From an uncultured Lachnospiraceae bacterium (lineage in GTDB: Bacteria; Bacillota; Clostridia; Lachnospirales; Lachnospiraceae), in NCBI GenBank assembly GCA_947570615.1, contig CANOVJ010000035.1, positions 1 through 40,643 of the forward strand: a stretch of DNA of 40,643 nucleotides. Reading direction: 5' to 3'. The first letter of the stretch is position 1, and every line of letters begins with the position of its first letter. Under the pieces are notes generated by a model that saw only the letters and a program-made list of their open reading frames with translations, did no database searches and was not told the DNA's origin. The position numbers were made by a program, and so were the translations under genes. Positions 5,231 to 8,182 of the stretch are shown here, piece after piece.

Positions 5231-5250
5231 AATTATAACCATGCTCCTTT

Positions 5251-5381
5251 CAAAGTCTCGGAGACTTTGTGCGTAGCACAAATCTCCAGATGGAAAATTT
5301 TAATTTTCAATCTTCTCCTTTTCCTTCCCGTTCCTGCTCGCCCCATGCGCCGCTTTAGCGGCATACTTCCTCTGCATGGGG
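5251..5381 (-). repeat. Three inverted repeats between the T-box terminator and aspS
   Basis: Three separate stems lie here. CAAAGTCTC/GAGACTTTG (5251-5269) is a 9-bp palindrome. TTTGTGC/GCACAAA (about 5266-5282) overlaps it. A long stem at 5341-5381 pairs CCCCATGC with GCATGGGG around an inner GCCGC/GCGGC hairpin. None is followed by a T tract, so they are not ordinary terminators. They would be transcribed only when the T-box reads through, and could affect stability or ribosome access; alternatively they are a dispersed repeat. Confidence 0.6.
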
Positions 5382-5389
5382 CTGCGCAT

Positions 5390-5660
5390 AAAAAAATCCT
5401 GAACTGACTTTGCAATCAATTCAGGACGAATCATACCAATCCGCGGTGCCACCTGATTTACCGCCCATCCTCCCATCCGAATATTTATGCCATTTCCGGA
5501 CATTAAGAGCAGTCACTTTCGAAGCGGAAAAATTTCCGCCTTTAAACGGACAGCTGGTAAAGCTGTTATTCATGTGGACTCATTCTGCCGGCTTTCCACC
5601 CTCCCGGCTCTCTGGAAGCGATCTTCCACACTACTTCGTCTTCGTCGTCGCTGTATATTG
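5390..5660 (-). promoter_or_regulatory. T-box riboswitch upstream of aspS, predicted Asn (AAC) specifier
   Basis: A complete T-box leader on the minus strand. The stem I base pairs ACAGC with GCTGT. The loop-E partner sequences AGTA and GAA flank the specifier loop, the helix above pairs GTGTGGA with TCCACAT, and the apical CAGAGAG and GGTGGAAAG motifs are present. The specifier region reads GAA-T-AAC-A, placing AAC (Asn) at 5565-5567. The antiterminator T-box sequence (AGGTGGCACCGCGG) is at 5441-5454. The competing terminator is a long stem at 5397-5426 followed by T7 (5390-5396). Uncharged tRNA should allow read-through into aspS. An Asp codon (GAC) would be the naive expectation, and I do not find it at the specifier position. 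Confidence 0.85.
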
Positions 5661-5664
5661 ATAT

Positions 5665-5693
5665 ATAATAATGTAGAATCTCTGTTTTGTCAA
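5665..5693 (-). promoter_or_regulatory. Sigma-A-type promoter for the aspS leader
   Basis: TTGACA (5688-5693) and TATTAT (5665-5670) are separated by exactly 17 bases on the minus strand, just before the first stem of the T-box. Confidence 0.8.
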
Positions 5694-7711: not shown

Positions 7712-8182
7712 ATGATTCTGGAAACAAGAACAGGCTTCTTAATCTCACAAATCAAGCTGACACAGCGCAGAATATTTCAAAAATTGCTGCAGAACTGTGG
7801 TGTGGAGGGCTTCAATGGACCACAGGGAAACATCCTTTATGTGCTCTGGCAGAAGGACACCGTTCCCATCGTTGAGATTGCCGAAAAGACCGGACTTGCC
7901 AAAAACACACTGACAGTCATGCTTGACCGAATGGAAGAAAACGGGCTGATTTGTCGAAAACAAAGTGCCGATGACCGGCGTAAAACACTGATTTGTCTGA
8001 CGGAGAAAGCGCGCGGGTTCGAGAGGGATTACGAACGGGTATCCCGGCAGATGAATGATTTGTTTTTTCGGAATTTTTCTGAAAAGGAAGTCAGGGAACT
8101 GGAAAAATATCTTGACAGGATCATGGAAAACCTGCAGGAAGCTGAAAGAGAAAATCGAAACAGAAAGGAAGAAAGCAAATGA
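7712..8182 (+). CDS. MarR-family transcriptional regulator
   Basis: 156 residues, normal for MarR. A winged helix-turn-helix runs from about residue 40 to 110: IVEIAEKTGLAKNTLTVMLDRMEENGLI is the helix-turn-helix and the wing carries SADDRRKTLICLTEKA, the conserved D-R-R turn. The C-terminal helix, rich in E, K and R, would complete the dimer interface. The stop overlaps the start of the next gene (ATGA), so the two are co-translated and the oxidoreductase-like partner is the likely target. The ligand is unknown. Two palindromes in its own promoter suggest autoregulation. Confidence 0.9.
   Translation: MILETRTGFLISQIKLTQRRIFQKLLQNCGVEGFNGPQGNILYVLWQKDTVPIVEIAEKTGLAKNTLTVMLDRMEENGLICRKQSADDRRKTLICLTEKARGFERDYERVSRQMNDLFFRNFSEKEVRELEKYLDRIMENLQEAERENRNRKEESK

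Follow-up and report, generated by a model that had tools for sequence, protein, structure and literature searches.

Why should a gene for an aspartyl-tRNA synthetase be preceded by a leader that reads a codon for asparagine? The question is raised by a 40,643-nucleotide contig of an uncultured Lachnospiraceae gut bacterium (CANOVJ010000035.1, assembly GCA_947570615.1), hereafter the window, where the gene aspS (here aspS1, encoding AspRS1) lies behind a T-box leader. An initial annotation, made from the sequence alone, had read the specifier of this leader as an Asn codon and proposed that the gene answers to asparagine supply. We propose, with a probability of roughly 77%, that the leader is a tRNA(Asn)-sensing transcriptional T-box driving AspRS1, and that this enzyme makes Asp-tRNA(Asn) for the amidotransferase GatCAB in a cell that also possesses AsnRS.

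The leader is matched by the T-box covariance model RF00230 over its whole length (1-219 of 219), with 71.3 bits and an E-value of 1.8e-15 for the 601 bases searched, or 2.8e-15 for the whole genome (Table 1). The gathering score of the family is 93 bits. Consequently, a scan of the whole window at Rfam gathering thresholds returned no entry, and the leader emerged with a permissive scan; 8 of the 13 T-boxes in the host genome also fall below the gathering score. We assign the leader to RF00230 despite its score because the functional features of a T-box are present. The specifier loop is an internal loop of a conserved stem I, and a UGGN bulge lies within an antiterminator that is mutually exclusive with a terminator, the two competing for one common strand at the energies given in Table 1. 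The initial annotation had called the T-box complete, which overstates the case, stem II and the IIA/B pseudoknot being gapped (shortened or absent) in the alignment. These elements are also absent from accepted T-boxes such as glyQS, and therefore are not strictly defining. Stem I folded freely on its own did not adopt the T-box shape (z -0.59 against shuffles) and the antiterminator on its own scored no better than shuffles (z -0.12), so the structure of the leader rests on comparison. Downstream, the aspS reading frame (5281-3482) scores 728 bits against NF001750, and starts at 5242 or 5281 are possible alternatives to the one listed. A palindromic hairpin at 5287-5251 (minus strand), whose core is single-copy in the window, directly precedes the aspS start and adjoins the ribosome-binding region.

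Table 1. Features of the aspS1 leader and gene in the window, with the basis of each assignment.
Feature	Position	Strand	Basis
Sigma-70-like promoter, TTGACA-17-TATTAT (11/12)	5665..5693	-	consensus match only
T-box leader RF00230, 71.3 bits, below gathering score	5419..5657	-	covariance model
Stem I	5553..5653	-	masked-specifier profile match and covariation
AGUA, 5' side of specifier loop, loop E partner	5632..5635	-	sequence and RF00230 register
AGAGAG, distal stem I loop region	5608..5613	-	sequence and RF00230 alignment
GAA, 3' side of loop E	5569..5571	-	sequence and RF00230 alignment
Spacer U between GAA and AAC	5568	-	RF00230 register
Specifier AAC (Asn codon), 1-base spacer before, A after	5565..5567	-	RF00230 register; 63/63 masked-profile leaders
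UGGC bulge, complementary to GCCA-3' of G73 tRNA	5448..5451	-	sequence
Antiterminator, -9.8 kcal/mol, z -0.12 (not above shuffles)	5421..5456	-	folding and RF00230 alignment
Intrinsic terminator of 14 base pairs with T run, -18.6 kcal/mol, far above shuffles (z -6.91)	5396..5427	-	folding
Dispersed-repeat copy after terminator T run, outside switch, without second hairpin	5340..5394	-	repeat comparison
aspS (AspRS1), 582 aa	3482..5230	-	start from comparison with relatives

A separate observation concerns the sequence just beyond the switch. A modular repeat starts exactly at the terminator T run, with TTTTTATGCRCAG followed by one or two hairpins (the window copy listed in Table 1, and loci L276-L304). 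The host genome holds 29 such repeat/terminator junctions against 0 for the reversed pattern, and by eye the module is present, in part at some, at 27 of the 29. The repeat follows 8 of the 13 T-box terminators of the genome, and a scan of 20 further loci placed a SAM and an FMN riboswitch directly ahead of a junction and a lysine riboswitch behind one. It looks like an element that inserts at terminators, including those of riboswitch leaders; a literature search on a terminator-linked repeat found nothing.

In the RF00230 register the specifier site reads GAA-U-AAC-A with AGUA opposite, just as the initial annotation had arranged the loop E partners and the codon. The length of the spacer decides the reading, since a spacer of 0 would give UAA, a stop, in the aspS leader and a spacer of 1 gives AAC, and both lengths are present among the T-boxes of the host genome. 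Twelve of the 13 T-boxes precede genes other than aspS. Eleven of these can be read (nine in the RF00230 register, Ile and Pro by eye), the pheS leader being unreadable, and all 11 specifiers match the amino acid of their own gene, in keeping with the rule that the initial annotation had invoked. They comprise Ala GCA, Val GTG, Tyr TAC, Leu CTG, one Trp TGG and Pro CCC with spacer 0, and Thr ACC, Cys TGC, Met ATG, Ile ATC and the other Trp TGG with spacer 1; the tyrS gene was identified by eye because its score missed the chosen E-value limit. The aspS leader is the sole mismatch between specifier and gene among the readable T-boxes of this genome.

An earlier regular expression had itself required AAC, and for this reason the specifier columns were masked in a profile of 44 stems of type A (GAA-N-AAC), which was run against the window and 179 loci. 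The masked profile misses most leaders of type B (GGGAAC); its hits were the window, 33 of the 80 best relatives (out of at least 583), 28 of the 42 AspRS1 loci fetched, and 1 of the 57 others. All 63 matched leaders carry AAC followed by A, the spacer being T in 46, A in 14 and G in 3; 44 training stems recur among these 63, and some loci come from one organism. GAC, which the initial annotation had named as the triplet that would speak against its reading, occupies the specifier register in 0 of the 63. The Asn codon is thereby upheld by both the covariance-model register and the masked leaders.

The sequences show the leader, its codon, the conservation of both and the accompanying genes; the tRNA binding, enzyme specificity and physiological switch that we infer would operate as follows. 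When Asn-tRNA(Asn) is low, the GUU anticodon of uncharged tRNA(Asn) would pair with the AAC of stem I and the GCCA terminus of this tRNA with the UGGC bulge, allowing the antiterminator to form and aspS1 to be transcribed. AspRS1, either non-discriminating or leaning towards Asn, would load Asp onto tRNA(Asn), and GatCAB, encoded elsewhere in the genome, would amidate the resulting Asp-tRNA(Asn) to Asn-tRNA(Asn). AsnRS would use free Asn, and a shortage of free Asn would, through the switch, bring tRNA-dependent Asn synthesis into play. The second AspRS, which has no T-box, would serve tRNA(Asp).

The enzyme itself looks, from its sequence, like the transamidation type. From a set of 98 genomes, 99 aspS copies of the genus and family were taken (fragments in G015, G026 and G059 excluded), and together with the window's protein these form three groups, namely AspRS1 (43, including the window's), AspRS2 (39, including one row of uncertain label) and D-type (18). 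AspRS1 unites a set of 39 (SH-aLRT 99) and a set of 4 (100), both on long branches, with a support of 90 only, and the tree program flags this join as potentially false. At the place of H31 in Pseudomonas aeruginosa AspRS, which when occupied by His we take to be typical of non-discriminating enzymes, all 43 AspRS1 proteins have His, all 39 AspRS2 proteins have Ser, and all 18 D-type proteins have K, L, M or T. The second specificity place, which we assume to be Gly81 of P. aeruginosa AspRS, is Glu in 42 of the 43 AspRS1 proteins, including the window's, and Asp in one; it is never Gly, the residue found there in P. aeruginosa and mycobacterial chains (the offset giving His31 puts this Gly at 82 in the P. 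aeruginosa chain). Glu at the second place argues against a plain copy of the non-discriminating pattern as we understand it. Further, 43 of the 80 relatives (the best of at least 583) carry a co-directional gatA frame at a distance of 358-1458 bases behind aspS1, and 40 of the 80 also show gatB; of the 37 relatives from this best 80 that lack gatA behind aspS1, the contig ends early in 3.

AspRS2, which sits on a long branch and has a modified loop in its anticodon domain, is seen in 35 of the 37 genus genomes, and the usual D-type of the family in none of them, locus L120 apart. L120 (G007:C57, a 6-kb contig) has an AAC stem I before a divergent AspRS that falls outside AspRS1 and has Met at the H31 place; it lies on a long branch, and this contig is perhaps foreign to G007.

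AspRS1 might even be a dedicated Asp-tRNA(Asn) synthetase that largely leaves tRNA(Asp) to the AspRS2 or D-type enzymes, a tentative reading that we regard as rather unlikely. Such a division of labour would be comparable to that of Helicobacter, where GluRS2 is specific for tRNA(Gln). It would fit the co-occurrence of AspRS1 with an AspRS2 or D-type copy in 42 of 43 genomes (the exception, G031, is 78% complete), the control by an Asn codon alone, and Glu where the P. aeruginosa and mycobacterial chains have Gly, yet a non-discriminating enzyme accounts equally for the same facts. Similarly doubtful is the fuller version of this idea, in which a stand-alone Asn T-box on a dedicated AspRS1 would switch the cell from AsnRS and free Asn to Asn made on tRNA.

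The genome that hosts this switch, 4.05 Mb in size and 94.8% complete, overturns one premise of the initial annotation. Its account of an AspRS and GatCAB route agrees with the His at the H31 place, the gatA behind aspS1 in relatives and the U1-A72 pair of tRNA(Asn) described below, and parts from the data where it implied that AsnRS is missing. A search for asnS, gatA and gatB, along the lines that it had recommended, finds an intact asnS (L017, 463 aa, scoring 634 bits against TIGR00457). A single gatB, accompanied by gatA, lies on another contig than aspS1, which stands alone in the window with no gatCAB operon. The synthetases of interest are AspRS1, the second AspRS (AspRS2, L107, without a T-box), AsnRS and, identified by eye, LysRS. 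The presence of asnS excludes its loss as the cause of the Asn codon in the host genome. The initial annotation had said that an intact asnS together with tRNA(Asp) binding would speak against its reading; asnS is indeed intact, whereas tRNA(Asp) binding is unlikely given the codon. No asnA was found there, and two proteins above the TIGR01536 asparagine synthase cut-off are adjacent on contig C10; with AsnRS and these two asparagine synthase-like proteins present, the cell may not have to rely on the indirect route to Asn-tRNA(Asn).

The 51 genus and family genomes with a completeness of 85% or more comprise 40 that encode AspRS1, 29 of them without asnS, and 11 that do not, 2 of them without asnS (p 0.0018, uncorrected for kinship); the association weakens to p 0.038 at 90% completeness, gives p 0.0035 with all 60 genomes, again uncorrected for kinship, and is absent within the genus alone (p 0.52 at 85% completeness), where asnS is above cut-off in 11 of 37 genomes. 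Neither asnS nor AspRS1 is present in G015, which has aspS fragments that may be AspRS1, or in G057, which has a weak asnS match containing a stop (134.8 bits). An asnA above cut-off was always accompanied by asnS (18 of 18 genus or family genomes), a co-occurrence that PMC4206432 gives as a general statement. The window also encodes a MarR-like regulator (7712-8182, plus strand) that matches TIGR04472, a radical SAM mobile pair system family, at 164 bits, below the cut-off of 240.

The presence of asnS, the solitary position of aspS1 with gatAB on a different contig, and the Glu at the second specificity place would all be expected if the leader senses tRNA(Asn) while tRNA(Asp) is the sole substrate of AspRS1 and the Asn codon survives by inertia as a relic of an ancestral indirect route. 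We consider this improbable. Nine genus genomes possess both asnS and AspRS1, and AAC is retained in all eight of their visible leaders, including the window's (the leader of the ninth, in G036, is out of view at a contig end); His is retained at the H31 place; and a second AspRS is available for tRNA(Asp). These features favour instead an AspRS1 that would still supply GatCAB with Asp-tRNA(Asn) and do so beside AsnRS.

A T-box motif lies upstream of 40 of the 43 AspRS1 copies and of 0 of the 57 other aspS copies. One of the three AspRS1 copies without the motif is at a contig end, and the upstream stretches of the AspRS1 loci L177 and L199 contain no T-box; the leader of L194 (G049) has motif and terminator with an unreadable stem I. 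The 80 relatives, nearly all labelled Lachnospiraceae or other Clostridia, were the best of at least 583 returned by a protein search. Adding these to the 43 copies gives 123 AspRS1 leaders, apparently with at least five organisms in both sets, of which 113 have the motif by regular expression: 64 of type A, 31 of type B, and 18 others, where inspection by eye found AAC at the same place in 15 and no readable specifier in 3 (L186 is counted as type A by the expression and as type B by eye).

Covariation further supports stem I. Over 44 aligned sequences, 95.1% of the cells in the proposed helices can pair, compared with 82.1% after shuffling. Two-sided changes occur at 12 of 18 pairs, matched by 7 of 500 shuffles, and at 7 of 7 pairs of the helix beside the specifier loop; the window row was the source of the tested structure, a choice somewhat in its favour, and slid versions of it pair in 33-47% of cells.

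In type B leaders GAA and AAC overlap by a one-base shift, and in the type B leader L028 the specifier assigned by RF00230 is again AAC. Among the 80 relatives (the best of at least 583, with leader type set by hand in 12 rows), gat genes accompany 31 of 32 type B leaders, the remaining one being at a contig end, and one uncertain type B leader, compared with 5 of 37 type A leaders; of 10 unclassed leaders, 6 have gat, 2 do not and 2 are at contig ends. Strong by count, this tie between leader type and gat operon is not significant once kinship is considered: on the tree, leader type changes only 3 times and operon state 5 times, and the independent pairs are 2 for, 0 against and 2 without difference.

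The overlapping GAA and AAC of these type B relatives invite the idea that the window's leader, too, senses two tRNAs, in the manner of tRNA(Asn) and tRNA(Glu) on the overlapping codons of Clostridium acetobutylicum. We consider this very improbable, since the window triplet one base before AAC is a stop, and the base before AAC varies (T, A or G) over the 63 masked-profile leaders with AAC constant. A single tRNA(Asn) as effector of the aspS1 leader agrees better with this pattern.

No gene for tRNA(Asn) or tRNA(Asp) was recognised in the host assembly among 27 called tRNAs or by pattern searches. Among 8 loci of relatives, 5 yielded a called tRNA(Asn), with anticodon GUU; four of the five have U1-A72 and G73, and the fifth has a foreign 5' end. 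Bacterial GatCAB requires U1-A72, according to PMC4206432. The one tRNA(Asp) read in relatives has G1-C72 and G73, and the UGGC bulge is compatible with the G73 of both tRNAs. That the leader answers to tRNA(Asp) after all, through mispairing or another register, has on its side this shared G73 and the gene's name, aspartate--tRNA ligase, and is nevertheless extremely unlikely given the mismatch of GUC with AAC at the first codon base and the lack of any GAC in register among the 63 leaders.

The principle at work has precedents. A tRNA(Asn)-dependent T-box on the transamidation operon of C. acetobutylicum was reportedly described by Saad in 2012 (JBC) and 2013 (PNAS), and we presume that this operon begins with an aspS. 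Published papers add that its specifier loop contains overlapping Asn and Glu codons (PMC4052509), that C. acetobutylicum has three AspRSs (PMC4206432), and that one of its three aspS genes carries a T-box (PMC2494555). The statement of the initial annotation that Asn-responsive T-boxes are known for transamidation genes is correct and the principle is not new, since a tRNA(Asn)-sensing T-box on a transamidation operon has already been published. A literature search returned no Lachnospiraceae case of an Asn T-box on a stand-alone aspS, a weak negative because most subscription papers lay outside the search; the TBDB paper draws a table from 23,535 T-boxes. The aspS1 leader is thus a well-supported new example of a known principle. 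What differs here is the solitary aspS, the single non-overlapping Asn codon, and the wide conservation in Lachnospiraceae. If our reading is true, the specifier codon identifies the tRNA that an enzyme annotated simply as AspRS really serves, and it could mark transamidation-type AspRSs in many gut genomes where annotation merges both kinds.

Compared with known systems, the leader resembles RF00230 in its stem I with the AGUA/GAA loop, distal AGAGAG, UGGN bulge, antiterminator and terminator, and departs from the full family in its sub-gathering score and its shortened or missing stem II and IIA/B. In its gene content the host is like Bdellovibrio, Deinococcus and Thermus, which, according to the partial text of PMC4206432, where T-boxes feature in reference titles only, have AsnRS beside a tRNA(Asn)-fit AspRS and GatCAB; the same text counts four Clostridiaceae in which GatCAB and AsnRS occur with an additional AspRS. 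The extra AspRS is there described as archaeal in type in Deinococcus and Thermus, whereas the window's matches the bacterial model (NF001750). The nearest parallel is C. acetobutylicum, which, like the window's genome, has several aspS genes and an Asn-codon T-box before one or more genes belonging to the transamidation route. There, however, one operon is under control and the Asn and Glu codons overlap, whereas the window has a solitary aspS and GAA-U-AAC, with no overlapping Glu codon. Our reading, if true, also points to a natural, testable contrast between leaders with overlapping Glu and Asn codons, mostly before aspS-gat operons, and leaders with Asn alone, mostly before a solitary aspS.
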